DNA of 64,000 nt from Spirochaeta cellobiosiphila DSM 17781. Its GTDB lineage: Bacteria; Spirochaetota; Spirochaetia; DSM-17781. The stretch covers positions 62,001-126,000 of the forward strand of contig NZ_KE384558.1 in NCBI RefSeq assembly GCF_000426705.1, written 5' to 3'. This document shows, in pieces, positions 2,862 through 10,880 of this stretch. The position numbers and the translations under genes were made by a program. The notes beneath the pieces were generated by a model. It was not told the DNA's origin. It searched no databases and worked only from the letters and a program-made list of their open reading frames with translations. Position 1 is the first letter of the stretch. Each line of letters begins with the position of its first letter.

Positions 2862-3596
2862 ATGAACCAAAAGATTTTAATAGTAGATGATGAACCAATA
2901 AATTTAGAGTTCTTTGAAGTTATGCTAACCAAACTAGGGTTCACTGTTGCCCTGGCTCATGATGGTGAAGAGGCCTTGGACAAGGTTCGAGAAGTTAATC
3001 CTGAATTAATAATTCTTGATAACATAATGCCTAAGTTAACAGGTTGGGAAGTAACGAGATTAATAAAAAAGGATCCTCGATATACTGATTATAAGGATAT
3101 TCCTATTATCATGTTCTCAGCATTAGATGCGGCAAAAGATAAAATTGAGGGTTTTGAGTTAGGAATAGAAGATTATATAACAAAACCTTTTAATTTTTCA
3201 GAAGTCCTTGCGAGGATACGTGCTGTTCTAAGACATAGAGAATTATCCAAATCAATTGTTCATAAAGAAAGACGTATTACTTTAATCGAATCCTTTAATA
3301 AATCCTTAACCTATTTCACCCAGGCCCTGCGAGAGCCTGTAGAATCCTTATTACAAGGGGCTAACAATCTGGATACTTCCAATTTAAGTGACGTAGAGCA
3401 ATATGTCTCACAGGTTAAAGATGAGTGTAAGAGAGCCGTAGCGGCTTTAGAAGGCCTAGATGAAGAAATCTCTGATCTAAAAAGTCAGGGGGATAAGCTA
3501 AAGGAAAATGAGATATCTGTTGAAGAATTAGAACGCAGATTTCAAAAACACCTAAATGGTCTTAAAGAAGGCCAGGAAAACATAAGTGTTTCCTGA
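2862..3596 (+). CDS. Response regulator, REC domain with coiled-coil tail
   Basis: 244 residues, start after GAGAGGGG. Residues 1-125 are a complete receiver domain: acidic pair Asp9-Asp10, phospho-acceptor Asp53 (LIILDNIMP), Ser86 and the conserved Lys108 in ITKPF. Residues 130-244 contain no recognisable DNA-binding or enzymatic output. They are predicted helical, rich in Glu and Lys, and look like a coiled coil (for example EEISDLKSQGDKLKENE). It therefore probably acts by protein contact. It is followed closely by a small TPR protein and a bactofilin. No partner kinase is adjacent. Confidence 0.85.
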   Translation: MNQKILIVDDEPINLEFFEVMLTKLGFTVALAHDGEEALDKVREVNPELIILDNIMPKLTGWEVTRLIKKDPRYTDYKDIPIIMFSALDAAKDKIEGFELGIEDYITKPFNFSEVLARIRAVLRHRELSKSIVHKERRITLIESFNKSLTYFTQALREPVESLLQGANNLDTSNLSDVEQYVSQVKDECKRAVAALEGLDEEISDLKSQGDKLKENEISVEELERRFQKHLNGLKEGQENISVS

Positions 3597-3611
3597 TATA
3601 AGGTAAGGTTT

Positions 3612-3833
3612 ATGTTATCTGAAAGCAAAAAAAAAGTTCTACAGTATTTTGCTGATGGACGAAAATATTATAAATTAATGCAGTTTGAAGAGGCAAAGCG
3701 CAGTTTTGCTGAGGCTTTAAAGATTGATTCTGATGATGGCCCCAGTAAAGTGTATTTTGCGCGATGCAAGCATTATTTGCAAAATCCTCCTCCTGATGAT
3801 TGGGATGGGGTTTTTGTAATGACAACAAAATAG
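3612..3833 (+). CDS. Small TPR-like protein resembling the C-terminal tail of class III adenylate cyclases
   Basis: 73 residues, good ribosome site AAGGTAAGG. One TPR-like helix pair (about residues 8-41, with FADGRKYYKLMQFEEAKRSF and ALKID) is followed by DGPSKVYFARCKHYLQNPPP and DDWDGVFVMTTK. That last stretch is the tail commonly found after the catalytic domain of class III adenylate/guanylate cyclases. Here it stands alone with its own start and stop and no cyclase domain in any upstream frame. It could be a free regulatory module or a domain remnant that stayed useful. It lies 15 bases after the response regulator and 7 before the bactofilin, so it is almost surely in the same operon. 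Confidence 0.75.
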   Translation: MLSESKKKVLQYFADGRKYYKLMQFEEAKRSFAEALKIDSDDGPSKVYFARCKHYLQNPPPDDWDGVFVMTTK

Positions 3834-3840
3834 GAATACA

Positions 3841-4254
3841 ATGGCAAAACAACCTAATCATTCTCAGATCTATGACATAAAAACGACTTTGGGTAGTACA
3901 ACTGGATTTAATGGTACTATGCGTTTTTCTTCATCACTTCAAATTAATGGTCGCTTTGAAGGTCGTATTGAATCCCCTGGTTTCTTATATATCCATGAGG
4001 GGGCAGAAGTGATAGCTGACATTAAAGTCGGTTCTATCTTGATAGGGGGGCTGGTTCGAGGGAATGTCGAAGCCTCACAAGAATTAGAAATTGTGGAAAC
4101 AGGTCAAGTATACGGCAATTTGAAGGCCAATGTCTTAAAGATTGCTGATGGCGTTATTTTTGAAGGAAAAGTAGAAATGATTGGAGATCCTCAGGGCCTC
4201 GATATATTTAGTGCTTCTGCTAATCAATTAAAACAATCACTTCAAGGTGAATAG
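3841..4254 (+). CDS. Bactofilin (polymer-forming cytoskeletal protein)
   Basis: 137 residues. The core (about 25-120) is a run of short beta repeats rich in Gly, Ile and Val with the bactofilin pattern: LQINGRFEGRIESPGFLYI, GAEVIADIKVGSILIGGLV, GNVEASQELEIVETGQVYGN and LKIADGVIFEGKVEM. Bactofilins self-assemble into filaments at the membrane and help shape cells, position motility machinery or guide wall synthesis. The short N- and C-terminal tails are polar, as usual. No M23 peptidase is adjacent, although bactofilins often pair with one; the nearest is at 44006. The stop overlaps the cinA start by 8 nt. Confidence 0.92.
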   Translation: MAKQPNHSQIYDIKTTLGSTTGFNGTMRFSSSLQINGRFEGRIESPGFLYIHEGAEVIADIKVGSILIGGLVRGNVEASQELEIVETGQVYGNLKANVLKIADGVIFEGKVEMIGDPQGLDIFSASANQLKQSLQGE

Positions 4255-5506
4255 CATTAAGAACGCATTACTTCTTTTAATGGGAACAGAGCTTGTCACT
4301 GGACAAGTTCAAGATCTCCATACAATGTATGTGGGAAGATATTTTAAGAGTATGGGGATTCAATTAGCAAAAGTTGTATTACTGCCAGATTGTTCTGAAG
4401 ATATTAAAAGAGTTCTGAATGACGCTATAGAAGACAAGTATAATATCATTCTAACATTGGGAGGTTTAGGCCCAACCTCTGATGATTTGACAAGAGACAT
4501 TATAAGTGAAGTTACTTCCAGCCCCTTAGTCTGGCATGAACAAAGCTGGAATGATATCCAAAAGCGATTAAAGGGCAGGGCCAGTGAAAGCAATAGAAAT
4601 CAAGCTTTTTACCCTGATGGTTTTACTGTTGTAAGCAATGAATGGGGAACTGCACCGGGATTTCATCGTTATCATAGTGACCAACTTCTTATAAGCCTTC
4701 CAGGACCGCCCAGTGAGTTTCACCCTCTTTTTGAAGGGCAGATTATGCCACTAATAACAAAGTTATGGCCCAAAAACGATGCAAAAAGCGACTTCCCCTT
4801 TTCATGCTTTTTAATACCAGAGTCCGAAGTTGAAGATAGTCTAAAAGAGATGGTTACTTCTCTTATGACTTGGTCAACTATTGCAAGTGAAGGTCATATT
4901 AAAGTAACACTTCATGGTGAATATGATAATTGTAACAAGGTGTTTGAACTTCTAAAGGATAAATACGGAAGTTCTTGTGTTCGGAAGGGCCATGACACTA
5001 TAATCAATCAAGTTTTTAATTTATGCCTTGCTAATAAGATTGTATTAGCAGGAGCGGAATCCTGTACAGGGGGGCTCGTTGCCAAAGAGATTACAGACCT
5101 GCCAGGATCCTCTCAAATACTAAGTTCTTCACAAGTAGTGTATAGTAATGAAGCTAAAAACAAATTATTGGGAGTTCCCTTCCCCATCCTTGATAAATTC
5201 GGTGCCGTGTCGGAAGAAACAATTATAGCTCTATTGAATGGATTAAAAGAGCAAGGATTGGGTAATTGTTTTTATGCCGTTAGCGGAATTGCTGGTCCGG
5301 GAGGGGCCACAGAGAATAAACCTGTTGGTACCGTCTTTATCGGTGTTATGAGTAGTACAGGTGCGCCTATGGTTTATAGGTTTCAGTTCTCTGGTGATAG
5401 AGGATATGTTAGAAAAAAAACGGCAATTACCTTATATTTTATGATTGAAAACTTAATTTCCGGGAAAAATAGTATTGACAGGCTCATGGAGAGACCCTAT
5501 ATTTGA
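4247..5506 (+). CDS. cinA: CinA: competence/damage-inducible protein, nicotinamide-nucleotide amidase
   Basis: 419 residues. The N-terminal molybdopterin-binding-like (COG1058) domain shows LLMGTELVTGQVQD and TLGGLGPTSDDLTRD. The C-terminal CinA domain (about 255-410) shows AGAESCTGGLVAKEITDLPG and FYAVSGIAGPGGATENKPVG, the residues of the NMN deamidase site. The family cleaves damaged or spent pyridine nucleotides, and the C-terminal enzyme turns NMN into nicotinate mononucleotide. The start is GTG 4247, overlapping the bactofilin stop by 8 nt, which implies translational coupling; there is no strong ribosome site of its own. Confidence 0.93.
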   Translation: MNSIKNALLLLMGTELVTGQVQDLHTMYVGRYFKSMGIQLAKVVLLPDCSEDIKRVLNDAIEDKYNIILTLGGLGPTSDDLTRDIISEVTSSPLVWHEQSWNDIQKRLKGRASESNRNQAFYPDGFTVVSNEWGTAPGFHRYHSDQLLISLPGPPSEFHPLFEGQIMPLITKLWPKNDAKSDFPFSCFLIPESEVEDSLKEMVTSLMTWSTIASEGHIKVTLHGEYDNCNKVFELLKDKYGSSCVRKGHDTIINQVFNLCLANKIVLAGAESCTGGLVAKEITDLPGSSQILSSSQVVYSNEAKNKLLGVPFPILDKFGAVSEETIIALLNGLKEQGLGNCFYAVSGIAGPGGATENKPVGTVFIGVMSSTGAPMVYRFQFSGDRGYVRKKTAITLYFMIENLISGKNSIDRLMERPYI

Positions 5507-5598: not shown

Positions 5599-7281
5599 AT
5601 GAAAACCAATTCGGATCAAGATTCCTCACTTGAGCAGGAAGAAACTCTGGATTTGACAAACCAGGAGACTGAAGAGTCTACAAAAGAGACCGTTTCTGAG
5701 GAATCCACTGAACCTAAAAAAGCTGTACGAAAGGCAGTTAGACGAGTAAAAGTCGAAACGAGCGAAAGCAAAGAAACTCAAGATTCACAGGAATCTGGAG
5801 ATAGCGAAAAGTCCAAGGAAGAGACTCCTAATGCTATTGTCGATGCACCCAAGAAGAAAAGTCGTCGTAAAAAGATAAGGGTAGAGCTGGTGAAAGATGC
5901 TTTGGGAGATAATGGTTCTACCCAGGGTAGTCAGAAAAATCGTAGAAACAATAAAAAGAATTATAATTCTACCAGTAACAAAGAACCAATCCAGTTTGAT
6001 GAAAACAACAAAATTAGCATCAATGAATTAACCAGAAAGAATATGCCTGAGTTGAGAAGCATTGCCGTTGACTTGGGTGTTAACAAAGACGATATCCTGA
6101 CCATGAAGAAGCAGGAGGTTATCTTTAACATTCTAAAAGGCCATACCAATCAATCAGGGGTTATTTTTGCTTATGGTGTTTTAGAAATCCTTCCTGATGG
6201 CTATGGTTTTCTTCGAAGCCCTCAGAATTCTTATCTACCTGGACAGGATGATATTTATATCTCTCCCAGCCAGATACGATTATTCAATCTAAAGACTGGT
6301 GATACCGTATATGGTCAGATAAGACCTCCTAAAGAGGGGGAAAGATTTTTTGCCATGCTTCGAGTGGAATCTGTTAACTTTGATGATCCTTCTGTGGCTC
6401 AAAACAGAGTTCCCTTTGATAATTTAACTCCACTTTATCCTAACGAGCGCTTAGAGCTTGATGGAAAATCTGATGATGTCTCTACTAGAATCATTAATTT
6501 ATTCTGTCCCATTGGAAAAGGGCAGAGAGGTTTAATTGTATCCCCCCCCAGAACTGGTAAAACGACTTTGCTGCAACAGGTAGCTAATGCAATCACAACT
6601 AATCACCCAGAGGTTTATTTAATTGTATTGCTTATAGATGAGCGACCTGAAGAGGTAACGGACATGGAAAGAAATGTTCAGGGTGAGGTTGTCGCTTCTA
6701 CTTTTGATGAGCAAGCCACTAGGCATGTTCAAGTAGCTGAAATGGTTTTGGAAAAGGCTCGTAGACTGGTAGAGCATAAGAAGGATGTTGTGATCCTATT
6801 AGACTCTATTACCCGTCTTGCTAGAGCTTATAACCAAACCGTTCCTACTTCTGGTAAAATCCTTTCTGGTGGTGTCGATTCTAACGCCTTACATAAACCT
6901 AAAAGATTTTTTGGTGCTGCCCGTAATATTGAAGATGGGGGTAGCTTAACTATCGTAGCAACAGCCCTTGTTGAGACTGGTAGCCGAATGGATGAAGTAA
7001 TCTTTGAAGAGTTCAAAGGTACAGGTAATATGGAAATACATCTGGATAGAAGATTGTCTGACAGACGACTCTTTCCAGCTATGAATATTAAGAAGTCAGG
7101 TACCCGTAAAGAGGACTTACTGCTAAAACAGGAAGAACTTGCCAAAATGTGGATATTGAGGAAGGTTCTTAATCCTATGGATGATATCGAGATCGTGGAA
7201 CTGCTCATTGACAAAATGAGTAAAACTAAGAATAATGATGTCTTCTTAAGGTCAATGAACACATCTGGTGTGGGAATGTGA
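5599..7281 (+). CDS. rho: Transcription termination factor Rho with long charged N-terminal extension
   Basis: 560 residues, start ATG 5599 after GGAG. Residues 1-130 are low-complexity and very rich in Glu, Lys, Ser and Asn (clusters such as [10 protein letters not shown]). Then come a Rho N-terminal helical domain (about 138-180, [15 protein letters not shown]), the RNA-binding cold-shock fold (about 187-262, [20 protein letters not shown]) and the ATPase core. The P-loop SPPRTGKTT spans 315-323 with Lys321; DERPEEV and [13 protein letters not shown] follow. Rho is a hexameric RNA helicase that releases transcripts. The extension is longer than in enteric Rho (about 420 residues) but such inserts are common outside enterics. 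rpmE follows at once. Confidence 0.97.
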
Positions 7282-7304: not shown

Positions 7305-7508
7305 ATGAAGGACGGAATTCATCCTAACTATGTAGTTAGCAAGATAAAATGTGCTTGCGGTAACGTAATTGAAACCCGATCTACAGCTGGTGATATTGAA
7401 GTGGAAATCTGCTCAGAATGTCACCCCTTTTATACTGGTAAACAAAAGCTTGTTGATACTGCTGGTAGGGTAGAAAGATTCAAGAAAAAGTACGGTATTT
7501 CCGGCTAA
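7305..7508 (+). CDS. rpmE: 50S ribosomal protein bL31, zinc-binding type
   Basis: 67 residues from ATG 7305, fixed by GGAGGAGA at 7293-7300. The protein begins [20 protein letters not shown], the standard bL31 start. Zinc ligands are CAC near residue 16 and CSEC near residue 36, so this is the C+ (zinc-containing) form; [20 protein letters not shown] is the family signature. A start at 7278 would include the ribosome site and is rejected. A strong terminator follows. Confidence 0.96.
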
Positions 7509-7514
7509 GAAGAG

Positions 7515-7540
7515 CGGCCTATGGGCCGTTTTTCTTTTTT
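7515..7540 (+). terminator. Intrinsic terminator after rpmE
   Basis: Stem CGGCC (7515-7519) pairs with GGCCG (7524-7528) around a 4-base loop. A T-rich run (7529-7540, one C) follows at once. It begins 6 bases after the rpmE stop and is one of the few classical U-tract terminators in the window. Confidence 0.88.
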
Positions 7541-7791: not shown

Positions 7792-8391
7792 ATGAAGAAA
7801 TTATTCCTTCTATTAATTTTGCCAGCGTTTATAATGAGCTGTAATTCAACATCAAGAACTGTACAAAGAACCTCTGCTGATACGGTAACAGATTTAAGTG
7901 GTCGATGGAACGATACTGACTCTCGTTTGGTTGCAGAGGAAATGGTCTCTGATTCGTTGAGTTTCCCTTGGGTAAATGATTTTGCTACTCAAGAAGGTAG
8001 AAAACCTGTTGTAATAGTTGGTTCCATAAGTAATAGATCTAGTGAACACATAGATACAAGGGTTTTTACCAAAGATATTGAAAGAGAATTAATTAAGAGT
8101 GGTACAGTCAAATTTGTTGCCTCCAGTGATGAACGACTTCAATTGCGAGACGAAAAAACTGATCAACAATCTCAATCAAGTCTTGATACAATGAAAAGAA
8201 TTGGTCAAGAAACAGGAGCTGATTTTATGCTGATAGGTAATATATCATCCATAACTGATGCCATTGATAATAGAAAGGTTGTGTTTTACCAGGTGGATAT
8301 GGAGCTGATCAATATTGAAACTAATGAAAAAGTATGGATCGGTTCTAAAGAAATCAAGAAAGAAATAGAGCAACGTAAATCAAAATTCTAA
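7792..8391 (+). CDS. LpoB-like lipoprotein (penicillin-binding protein activator family)
   Basis: 199 residues, start after AAGGAG. Signal peptide MKKLFLLLILPAFIMSC ends in lipobox IMSC, so Cys17 should be lipidated. The rest fits the LpoB/COG3417 fold: WNDTDSRLVAEEMVSDSL, then RKPVVIVGSISNRSSEHIDT, VFTKDIERELIKSGTVKFV, a TGADFMLIGNISS strand and NIETNEKVWIGSKEIKKEI. In enterobacteria LpoB is an outer-membrane lipoprotein that activates PBP1b; whether it does so here is not shown by sequence. It is first in an operon with two more lipoproteins and overlaps the next gene by one base (TAATG). Confidence 0.85.
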   Translation: MKKLFLLLILPAFIMSCNSTSRTVQRTSADTVTDLSGRWNDTDSRLVAEEMVSDSLSFPWVNDFATQEGRKPVVIVGSISNRSSEHIDTRVFTKDIERELIKSGTVKFVASSDERLQLRDEKTDQQSQSSLDTMKRIGQETGADFMLIGNISSITDAIDNRKVVFYQVDMELINIETNEKVWIGSKEIKKEIEQRKSKF

Positions 8392-9821
8392 TGAGACGAA
8401 ATATGTCAAAAAAGTCTAGCTATCTTTTAATTACCTTGGTAGTTCTGACCACTATGGGTTGTGCCACCTCTCGTAATGAAAGATATGCGCAACTTGATAA
8501 TTATGTTAGAGCAGGCGATTACAATGCTGCTTTAGCTATATATGAAGATAAAAATGAATTAAGTGAATTATATAATGCTAATAAAGATCTTGTCCTCTAT
8601 CATTTAGATAGAGGCATGATTGCCTATTATGCTAATAAATATGATCTATCAATTAGTGAGCTTGAAATGGGTGAACGTCTTATTGAGGAGTACTTCACTA
8701 AATCTGTATCTCAAGCTGCTGCTTCCTACTTGTTAAATGACAATGTCATTGAATACCAAGGGGAGGTCCATGAAGATCTCTATGTTAATCTGTTCAAGTC
8801 TCTTTCCTATCTAGAGGAGAGGGATTTTGATGGGGCTTATGTTGAAGTACACAGATTAACAGATAAACTTAATTATCTTAATGATAAGTATGCTTCTCTG
8901 GCACAGGAATATAATAGTTCTGAAGATGAAGAGATTCCCATTACGTTAGAGGAAATCCGCTTTCATAATTCTGCTTTGGCCAGGTATCTGAGTATGTTGA
9001 TCTATCGAGGTGACAACAATTGGGACAGCGCTCGTATTGACCGTGACCAAATCAAAATGGCCTTTGCTTCTCAGAGTCAAATTTATGATTTTCCCCAACC
9101 TGATCTAGAGCCTTACTTGAGTAACACCGACAAAGGACGTTTGGACTTTATCGGGTTCGCAGGTCAAGCTCCTGTCAAGAAAGCTAATACTTTATATATC
9201 AAAACCATTAAGGATCAAATCATTATACTTCTACAGGAAGAGGGTGATGATGGTCAGATTCATAATAAGGAAGTCGATAGTTTTTACTGGAATGGAATGA
9301 ATAGCGGGTATTTCTTTAAATTCCAGTTACCTTACATGAAAAAACAAGGTAGCTCTGTTGACCGCATTAGAGTAAAAGTGGACGGTGAATATGCTGGTGA
9401 CTTAGAGCTAACAGAAAGTATGGAAAATGTAGCCTTCGAAACTTTTAAGTTAAAAGAGCCCATCATATATATCAAGACAATAACACGAACGATCGTAAAA
9501 GGCTTGATAGCTGAAGAAGCTAAAAAAGTCGCCAAGGATCAGGCACAAAAACAAATAGATGGTTTTGCTGGTTTATTAACCGGTATTGTCGCAGAAGTGG
9601 CCGCTGATATTGCCGTGGATGCTAGTGAAAAGGCTGATTTACGTTCTGGTCGATATTTCCCTTCCCATGCCTATACCGGTGAAATCTGGCTTGATCCAGG
9701 GACTCATAATATTCAGGTTGAATATTGGTCCAAGGATACATTGGTTAGTGAAAAATCCTATCCAGAATATAATGTGTCATCAAATGGACTTAATTTAATA
9801 ACAACCTACACTCCGGAATAA
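8391..9821 (+). CDS. COG3014-like lipoprotein with TPR-like helical region
   Basis: 476 residues. The signal peptide ends in lipobox TMGC (Cys24), then CATSRNERYAQLDNYVRAGD. About residues 35-200 are helical with TPR-like spacing (GDYNAALAIYED, AYYANKYDLSISELEMGERL). The C-terminal half is predicted beta plus a small Gly/Ala-rich segment (GLLTGIVAEVAADIAVDASE) and ends GTHNIQVEYWSKD. This resembles the uncharacterised COG3014 family, often found between LpoB-like and LPP20-like genes. ATG 8391 shares its A with the upstream stop; ATG 8403 (MSKKSS) is an equally good start. Molecular function is unknown. Confidence 0.78.
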   Translation: MRRNMSKKSSYLLITLVVLTTMGCATSRNERYAQLDNYVRAGDYNAALAIYEDKNELSELYNANKDLVLYHLDRGMIAYYANKYDLSISELEMGERLIEEYFTKSVSQAAASYLLNDNVIEYQGEVHEDLYVNLFKSLSYLEERDFDGAYVEVHRLTDKLNYLNDKYASLAQEYNSSEDEEIPITLEEIRFHNSALARYLSMLIYRGDNNWDSARIDRDQIKMAFASQSQIYDFPQPDLEPYLSNTDKGRLDFIGFAGQAPVKKANTLYIKTIKDQIIILLQEEGDDGQIHNKEVDSFYWNGMNSGYFFKFQLPYMKKQGSSVDRIRVKVDGEYAGDLELTESMENVAFETFKLKEPIIYIKTITRTIVKGLIAEEAKKVAKDQAQKQIDGFAGLLTGIVAEVAADIAVDASEKADLRSGRYFPSHAYTGEIWLDPGTHNIQVEYWSKDTLVSEKSYPEYNVSSNGLNLITTYTPE

Positions 9822-9833
9822 AAGGATGGTTAT

Positions 9834-10880
9834 ATGAAGAAATTATTATTATTGTTGATGCCATTGTTAATGTTTAGTTGTGCTTCCCAATCTGGAAGTA
9901 GTTCTGATAGCAATAATTCTTTGTCCAAGGATGAAGCTGCCAAGTTGTTTACAGATCCTGAAAGTGTCTATCCTGATGAGGATTATCTCTTTGCTGTGGG
10001 AACAGGTGATACTCGAAGAGATGCTGAGAATGATGCGATGGGTGCTTTAGCAAGAATCTTTCGTTCCGACATTTCTATGAGTAGTGAAGGGGTGAAACAG
10101 TATAGAGAGCTAATTAGTGGAGATGATTCTCAACTAAGCGAGGTTGAAAAGAATTTGGTTCAAACTACAACTGTAACAGCTCAGCAGGATCTTTTAGGGA
10201 TTAAGTACAGTCCTTCTTATACTGATGATCGCGGGGTCGTACATATTCTGGCCATTTTAGATCGAAAAGCTGTAGGAAAATTATATAGAGGTTTGATCCA
10301 GAAGAATGAAGAACGTGTTAACTCCTTGTTGGAATTAGCAGACAGTACTGATTCTGTAGCTCGTAAATATGCCTATACTCAAGGAGCCTATACCGTCGCT
10401 CAGGGTAATCAAATATATTTGGATCAGCTAAAAGTAATCAATCCTGCTTATGAAAGACTCAGTCAGCCTGAGGTTGGACTTAATGAACTTGAACAAATGG
10501 TTCAAAAAGTTCAAAGCAATATGTCTTTCCAAGTTCGAGTAGAAGGTGACTATGCAGATTCTTTAACTGAAGTTATCAAACAAGAGCTGGGTAAAAGTAA
10601 TTTAGCCGTATCTGATGATGGACCTATGGTCGTTACTGGATCCGTTCGTTTTTCTCCCTTACCTAAATCAGGTCAATATGAAGTTGTTCAGTGGCAGGTA
10701 TCATTTAATTTAGTTGATAATCAAGGTACTGTGTTAGCTTCTTTTGAAAAAATAGACAGAGAAAACAGCATAAGTCAGGATCAAGCAAAGCTTTTGGCAA
10801 TAAAATCTATTGAAAAGATTGTTAAACGGGAGTTTATTCCAGATGTCATGGATTACTTCCAAAGCTTAATTGTTCAATAA
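9834..10880 (+). CDS. LPP20-family lipoprotein
   Basis: 348 residues with signal peptide and lipobox MFSC (Cys16), followed by a Ser/Asn-rich linker. Residues about 50-160 match the LPP20 pattern, VGTGDTRRDAENDAMGALARIF and a following beta segment ending in HILAILDRKAVGKLYRGLI. The C-terminal part (235-348) has VEGDYADSLTEVIKQELGKS and MVVTGSVRFSPLP, resembling the nucleotide-free folds of FlgT/LPP20 proteins. It is the third gene of the lipoprotein operon, 12 bases after the second, start after AAGGATG. It is probably in the outer membrane; role unknown, plausibly envelope or wall related by its LpoB-like neighbour. Confidence 0.8.
   Translation: MKKLLLLLMPLLMFSCASQSGSSSDSNNSLSKDEAAKLFTDPESVYPDEDYLFAVGTGDTRRDAENDAMGALARIFRSDISMSSEGVKQYRELISGDDSQLSEVEKNLVQTTTVTAQQDLLGIKYSPSYTDDRGVVHILAILDRKAVGKLYRGLIQKNEERVNSLLELADSTDSVARKYAYTQGAYTVAQGNQIYLDQLKVINPAYERLSQPEVGLNELEQMVQKVQSNMSFQVRVEGDYADSLTEVIKQELGKSNLAVSDDGPMVVTGSVRFSPLPKSGQYEVVQWQVSFNLVDNQGTVLASFEKIDRENSISQDQAKLLAIKSIEKIVKREFIPDVMDYFQSLIVQ

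Follow-up and report, generated by a model that had tools for sequence, protein, structure and literature searches.

Organization of the Locus

The locus lies in a window of 64,000 nt (the whole stretch of DNA that was analysed, G000:C28:62001-126000), which is part of a 3.95-Mb genome. The features that matter here are the following:

2862..3596, + strand: gene for a REC-hairpin protein of 244 aa, with a receiver at residues 1-125, a hairpin at 112-242 and the phosphoacceptor D53 (from PF00072, orthologues and the AlphaFold2 model)
3612..3833, + strand: gene for a TPR protein of 73 aa, a stand-alone protein related to the C-terminal tail of class III cyclases, with the invariant C-terminal WDGV..M.TK
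3792..3830, + strand: codons 61-73 of the TPR protein, a nearly invariant C-terminal peptide that is extended in the model and is proposed as a docking motif
3841..4254, + strand: gene for a bactofilin of 137 aa, BbbA class (PF04519 at 88.0 bits; tree clade)
4247..5506, + strand: cinA, 419 aa (Pfam), which overlaps the bactofilin gene by 8 nt and is judged a neighbour, not a partner

These genes belong to a head-to-tail series in the order rpsT-hup-lnt-REC-TPR-bac-cinA-rho-rpmE. The stop of lnt at 2840 is separated by 21 nt from the REC start at 2862, and the spacing that follows is 15 nt for REC/TPR, 7 nt for TPR/bactofilin and −8 nt for bactofilin/cinA. The sites listed include no + strand terminator-like site between lnt and rho, while one with 13 pairs is found 3′ of rpmE at 7507-7536; promoter-like sites are not enriched (26 versus 22.5 in shuffles, sd 5.5). 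The preliminary description of this DNA was correct as to the packing, coordinates and identities of the four genes, including the 8-nt overlap, which can be read directly from the sequence. It called them an operon of four, and they are indeed tightly packed on the same strand, but they form part of a longer run from rpsT to rpmE and do not stand free.

Two other features of this neighbourhood can be mentioned. Rho carries a long N-terminal extension rich in Ser/Thr/Glu/Lys ahead of its Rho_N domain (window 5599-6000). Behind rpmE, a lipoprotein-like cluster at window 7792-10880 includes a match to LpoB, an activator of peptidoglycan synthase (152 bits), a 476-aa protein with no Pfam match and a weak LPP20 match; this cluster is possibly a further link to wall growth near the bactofilin.

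A Bactofilin of the BbbA Class

Bactofilins form filaments and polymerize without nucleotides. The protein encoded in the window is one of three in the genome, and it matches PF04519 with 88.0 bits (cut-off 27.9) over positions 1-97 of the 98 in the profile. We built a FastTree phylogeny from 30 bactofilins of the class loci, 45 chosen at random among 98 TPR-locus sequences, 7 from loci with REC only, 21 others and 28 presumed paralogues. One clade (support 0.934) contains 81 of the 82 linked bactofilins, as a check on the unrooted tree confirmed, and it also includes the hup-bac-rho bactofilin of a Borrelia-like locus (L195). The remaining one, L203_T_2724, is the second of two tandem bactofilins and lies behind the linked one. 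Among the presumed paralogues, 27 of 28 lie outside the clade, and the one inside (L330) sits between hup and rho. By tree and gene position, the linked bactofilins are assigned to the class of Borrelia BbbA, where L195 is presumed to be from Borrelia and none of the sequences in the tree was identified as a Leptospira LbbA.

Behind the bactofilin core, the class has a conserved C-terminal motif at about residues 113-131, with the consensus VDIFSA...LK, and the profile matches of many distant TPR-linked bactofilins end before it. A second bactofilin of this genome is encoded 3-7 kb before the window (L004 4813-8958, G000:C28:54812-58957), in a row with two M23 peptidase genes, DUF327 and PSP1. 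Several relatives likewise have a bactofilin gene upstream of rpsT, and thus there are two bactofilins in one conserved neighbourhood.

Conservation of the TPR–Bactofilin Pair

In a phylum sample of 198 genomes, the TPR profile matched 114 at E 1e-20. Three of these (G064, G226 and G129) match only in long frames of 584-884 aa, and the other 111 have a free-standing TPR gene. All 111 were inspected: 6 are in class loci, 5 correspond to L189, L190, L192, L193 and L194, and 100 are distant loci. A bactofilin gene lies directly behind the TPR gene in 108 of the 111, and the three exceptions (L168, L237 and L276) are contig ends. The gap between the two genes ranges from 11 to 201 nt, with a median of 56, in 97 distant loci. 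The surroundings of the pair outside the class are varied (10 neighbours scanned in 6 loci, 2 without any match), and it is kept beside genes as unrelated as those for an MscS-like channel, an aldo/keto reductase, a polyprenyl synthetase, ybbR/acpS and FliW.

The best-conserved member is the TPR protein, with a mean column identity of 75%, compared with 62% for REC and 57% for the bactofilin in the same 30 genomes. Distances between TPR proteins and between bactofilins show a moderate correlation (r = 0.56, 127 pairs), which shared descent alone could give. The core of the module is the TPR–bactofilin pair, for which gene order could hardly give stronger evidence of linkage. Support for a functional linkage within the module is strong; binding and mechanism are what we infer. 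The combinations found are REC with TPR and bactofilin, TPR with bactofilin, REC with bactofilin, and bactofilin alone, so that the bactofilin is common to all of them; it is found without REC and TPR in Borrelia-like and other loci (L195-L198, L200). In L203 (2300-3209), two tandem bactofilin genes follow the TPR gene, the second being outside the BbbA-class clade.

The TPR Protein and the Tails of Adenylate Cyclases

The only Pfam match of the TPR protein is PF00515, at 21.2 bits and under the cut-off of 27.8. Its model has a single pair of TPR helices and a capping helix, with an extended tail that is predicted at lower confidence; a Foldseek search with this model returned generic TPR structures, none at E under 0.001. 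Within 130 TPR sequences (30 of the class and 100 distant), D42, G43, P44, R51, P60, W64, D65 and G66 are invariant, and 129 of the sequences end in Lys, the remaining one being cut by a contig end. Of the 100 distant sequences, 98 have a length of exactly 73 residues, counted from model position 1 to the stop.

The TPR profile also matches the C-terminal ends of large proteins. Nine of these were scanned, and all nine have the PF00211 class III cyclase domain, together with CHASE2 in four, HAMP in three, dCache in one and neither in one. Seven of the nine align over most of the 73 residues and through the last one, while L078 aligns over the last 26 residues and L077 does not align to the end. 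What the small protein shares is the tail only, as Pfam finds no Guanylate_cyc catalytic domain in its 73 aa. The link extends outside the spirochaetes, as five plasmid records match (two from Leptospira, two from Rhizobium and one from Ruegeria), three of which are annotated as cyclases. On these alignments, the 73-aa protein is homologous to the C-terminal tail of class III adenylate cyclases but stands alone. The preliminary description was right that a small TPR protein is present and linked, but it missed this kinship. The exposed invariant C-terminal peptide, found in the free TPR proteins and in the cyclases, most plausibly represents a docking motif.

This homology gives rise to an alternative in which the TPR protein is chiefly a part of the cAMP pathway: it would mimic the cyclase tails and titrate their docking partner, and the bactofilin would serve to place cyclases and not to shape the wall. 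The homology is clear up to the last residue, and tail-bearing cyclases are frequent where the free gene is present: a hand count among 60 genomes, whose lineages are not independent, gives tail matches in frames of at least 400 aa in 33 of the 35 with a free TPR gene, in 4 of the 25 without and in 0 of 11 genomes without a bactofilin match. However, this co-occurrence is confounded by lineage and has exceptions in both directions, since G036 and G054 have a free TPR gene without a tail-cyclase, and G023 and G044 have tail-cyclases without a free TPR gene. In addition, the linked loci showed no cyclase gene. We regard this alternative as unlikely.

Distribution of the REC Gene

Full-length REC orthologues (at least 227 bits) are found in 33 of 60 genomes, counting the genome of the window, and the next matches score at most 98 bits. 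Conserved order across relatives had been set beforehand as a test, and the order REC-TPR-bactofilin is kept in 32 of these 33: in 30 of 30 returned class loci and in G042 and G021. The sole exception is G009 (L069), in which REC is followed directly by rho, without TPR, bactofilin or cinA. In the relatives G025, G046 and G036, the TPR–bactofilin pair is at the same place and REC is absent. Among the 80 named genome contigs that match the TPR protein best, REC lies ahead of TPR in 79 (not in L131), and the bactofilin follows in 79 (L135 ends there). These 80 loci overlap in part with the 30 class loci, and therefore the counts are not additive. In 36 of the 76 named loci that were measured, REC and TPR overlap by 4 nt.

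Farther away, a REC match lies upstream of TPR in only 9 of 100 distant TPR–bactofilin loci and is absent in 91. At E 1e-40, the REC profile matches 24 of the 198 genomes in the phylum sample. Eighteen REC-matching genomes are outside the set of 60, and in 17 of them, the bactofilin adjoins REC or is one gene further; in the remaining one (G181), the match is weaker and lies elsewhere, in a 371-aa frame. In seven genomes (L182-L188), REC and bactofilin occur without TPR, so that TPR is dispensable too; the gap between them is too small for a TPR gene in six of the seven, and that of L188, at 237 nt, could hide a diverged copy. No kinase gene was seen beside REC at the loci. Given the 9 in 100 distant loci, the seven genomes without TPR and the three relatives with the pair alone, REC is a widespread but optional addition. 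The very strong synteny thus supports the earlier proposal that a receiver and a TPR protein are linked to the bactofilin, with a change in emphasis, as the near-invariant ancient partner is the TPR protein and REC is dispensable.

Architecture of the REC-Hairpin Protein

The receiver matches PF00072 with 96.4 bits (cut-off 30.2), and it is a full one, as previously described: in 77 aligned orthologues, the acidic pair is conserved (D9 in 77, D10 in 76), as are D53 (77), S86 (76, plus one Thr) and K108 (73). No Pfam family scores above its cut-off after residue 120. The preliminary description had spoken of a coiled-coil as the only output; the region is better described as a long helical hairpin, since the AlphaFold2 model (mean pLDDT 84.5) places helices at 112-168, 175-215 and 220-242. 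We rejected the idea of a DNA-binding regulator, as Pfam found no output domain. Structure comparisons with the whole model were filled by receivers and are uninformative on the tail, and the tail alone gave weak matches among solved structures, the best at E 0.005, to coiled-coil-like proteins.

When compared by profile with 30 HisKA domains from this genome, the tail aligns in register with the DHp hairpin (P 0.0006, probability 28%), whereas the reversed tail gives 0.2% and 20 column shuffles give at most 0.1%. The phospho-His position is Gln in the window and His in only 1 of 77 orthologues; 40 of the 77 have a His one residue past it, the window not among them. An active DHp phosphotransfer domain was rejected because the His is not conserved. 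The resemblance in DHp register and the predicted long hairpin, together with the missing phospho-His, indicate that the tail may be a degenerate dimerization hairpin. One could go further and propose that such a hairpin acts as a decoy or partner for histidine kinases, binding them or their receivers and, through its place next to the bactofilin, tethering kinase signalling to the filament. The resemblance and the two long helices would fit this proposal, but the resemblance is under the usual thresholds, there is no Pfam HisKA match in the REC protein and the phosphorylatable residue is nearly always missing, so that we find it distinctly improbable.

Conserved Neighbourhood and cinA

Another alternative is that REC and TPR are hitch-hikers, sitting in a conserved housekeeping stretch from lnt to rho with no functional tie to the bactofilin. 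The series rpsT-hup-lnt...rho is conserved anyway, and cinA is an instance of an unrelated gene able to stay there. Nevertheless, TPR and bactofilin are together outside that stretch in most distant genomes, and REC remains with the bactofilin where TPR is gone. The distant loci refute pure hitch-hiking for the TPR–bactofilin pair, and as an account of the whole locus, we hold it to be very improbable.

CinA has the domains PF02464 (140.3 bits) and PF00994 (MoCF_biosynth, 86.8 bits), and it scores 297.6 on the NCBIfam equivalog PRK00549, under the cut-off of 379. It had been suggested that its presence may be due to chance, and the comparison bears this out. Among the 30 class loci, cinA has its N-terminal part in 16, is matched only in the C-terminal part in 11 and is lacking in 3; the corresponding numbers are 35, 27 and 18 for the 80 named loci, some of which are cut by locus ends, and it is absent from all 20 distant loci, of up to 10.5 kb, that keep TPR and bactofilin. 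The gene is truncated or absent in so many loci that we consider it a neighbour and rejected it as a module member. In the 11 class loci with a partial match, what is matched is the PncC amidase part, the N-terminal part being missing or unrecognized. That CinA, as an NMN deamidase, is a true fourth member linking NAD salvage to the filament finds some favour in the 8-nt overlap and in its presence, whole or in part, in 27 of 30 class loci, but its loss and reduction elsewhere make this extremely improbable.

A Possible Signalling Input to a Bactofilin Filament

The gene linkage, its conservation, the domain make-up, the homology of the tails and the completeness of the receiver are directly supported. 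The most likely reading is that the TPR protein is a docking adaptor of a BbbA-class filament to which REC adds a phosphorylation input. The BbbA-class bactofilin would form the filament. The 73-residue protein would be its dedicated adaptor, its TPR helices holding one partner and its exposed C-terminal peptide docking another. As many class III adenylate cyclases also end in this tail, their docking partner is probably one that the adaptor shares, through co-recruitment or competition, and the bactofilin scaffold may thereby come together with cAMP signalling at a single site. The co-occurrence of tail-cyclases with the free TPR gene counts in favour of this reading too, under the same limit of lineage. 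In many Spirochaetia, an unlinked kinase would phosphorylate D53 of REC, and the phosphorylated receiver would change the packing of its presumably dimeric hairpin. This, in turn, would alter how REC holds the TPR adaptor or the filament, with a possible change in where or whether the filament assembles. Every binding step is inferred, and for the complete explanation, a cytoskeletal module of filament, adaptor and REC-hairpin input, we see the chances as evenly balanced. Phosphorylation control of the filament and its tie to cAMP are hypotheses suggested by gene order and homology. It is rather doubtful that the TPR peptide is a docking signal common to spirochaete cyclases and the BbbA-class module, with receiver, cAMP synthesis and filament forming one scaffold; if it were so, this would be a bactofilin coupled to phosphorylation and cAMP, that is, a nucleotide-free filament within a signalling scaffold.

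To our knowledge, the control of bactofilin filaments is a largely open question. A near-constant TPR protein encoded just ahead of the bactofilin, in many lineages together with a phosphorylation switch, suggests an undescribed form of signal control of the bacterial skeleton. Should the receiver act on the filament, a cytoskeleton would be under two-component control through protein contact and not through transcription, which is rare. Moreover, a partner that is almost invariant throughout the phylum and ends in an invariant peptide provides a concrete handle for binding tests. Among the open-licence papers listed in the literature searches, none has a title or abstract opening that describes a spirochaete bactofilin with a TPR or receiver protein as its partner; the terms shared with PMC4546325 and PMC12364344 are a citation and the name of a two-hybrid method, respectively.

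Comparison with Known Systems

Among the Foldseek matches of the REC model are EutV and PorX, in which a receiver is likewise followed by long helices, although the matches are mainly on the receiver. EutV and PorX have an ANTAR or phosphatase function; unlike them, the REC-hairpin protein has no ANTAR or phosphatase domain. Another parallel is VemR of Xanthomonas, an orphan single-domain receiver that pulled down the bactofilin CcmA as one of many preys (PMC9218911). Both are receiver proteins with a link to a bactofilin, which for VemR is a reported physical one; VemR has a single domain, and the consulted part of that report states no gene linkage (PMC9218911).

For the filament itself, a close known system is that of Borrelia burgdorferi. 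Among its three bactofilins, BbbF and BbbG are reported to be essential organizers of peptidoglycan insertion, while BbbA (BB0231), kept for another study, is the one without a published function in the consulted part of that report (PMC13393453). By tree and by its hup-bac-rho position, the bactofilin of the window would belong to the same class as Borrelia BbbA and Leptospira LbbA (PMC13393453). The Borrelia-like locus L195, whose bactofilin corresponds by its place to BB0231, differs from the window in that REC, TPR, lnt and cinA are all missing between hup and rho, and the terms “TPR”, “tetratricopeptide”, “phosphorylat”, “cyclase” and “response regulator” are absent from the main text of that report (PMC13393453).

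The morphogenesis module of Hyphomonas, in which a bactofilin is coupled to an M23 peptidase, is likewise a case of a bactofilin with a partner gene (PMC10945521). In place of the peptidase of the M23 modules, the bactofilin of this locus has a TPR microprotein and a receiver protein as partners. An M23–bactofilin locus is also present in this genome, 8.8 kb upstream on the contig, and its bactofilin (L004) lies outside the clade. Finally, the tails of class III adenylate cyclases with CHASE2, HAMP or dCache domains are homologous to the TPR protein, which is here a separate gene without a cyclase domain, tied to a bactofilin.
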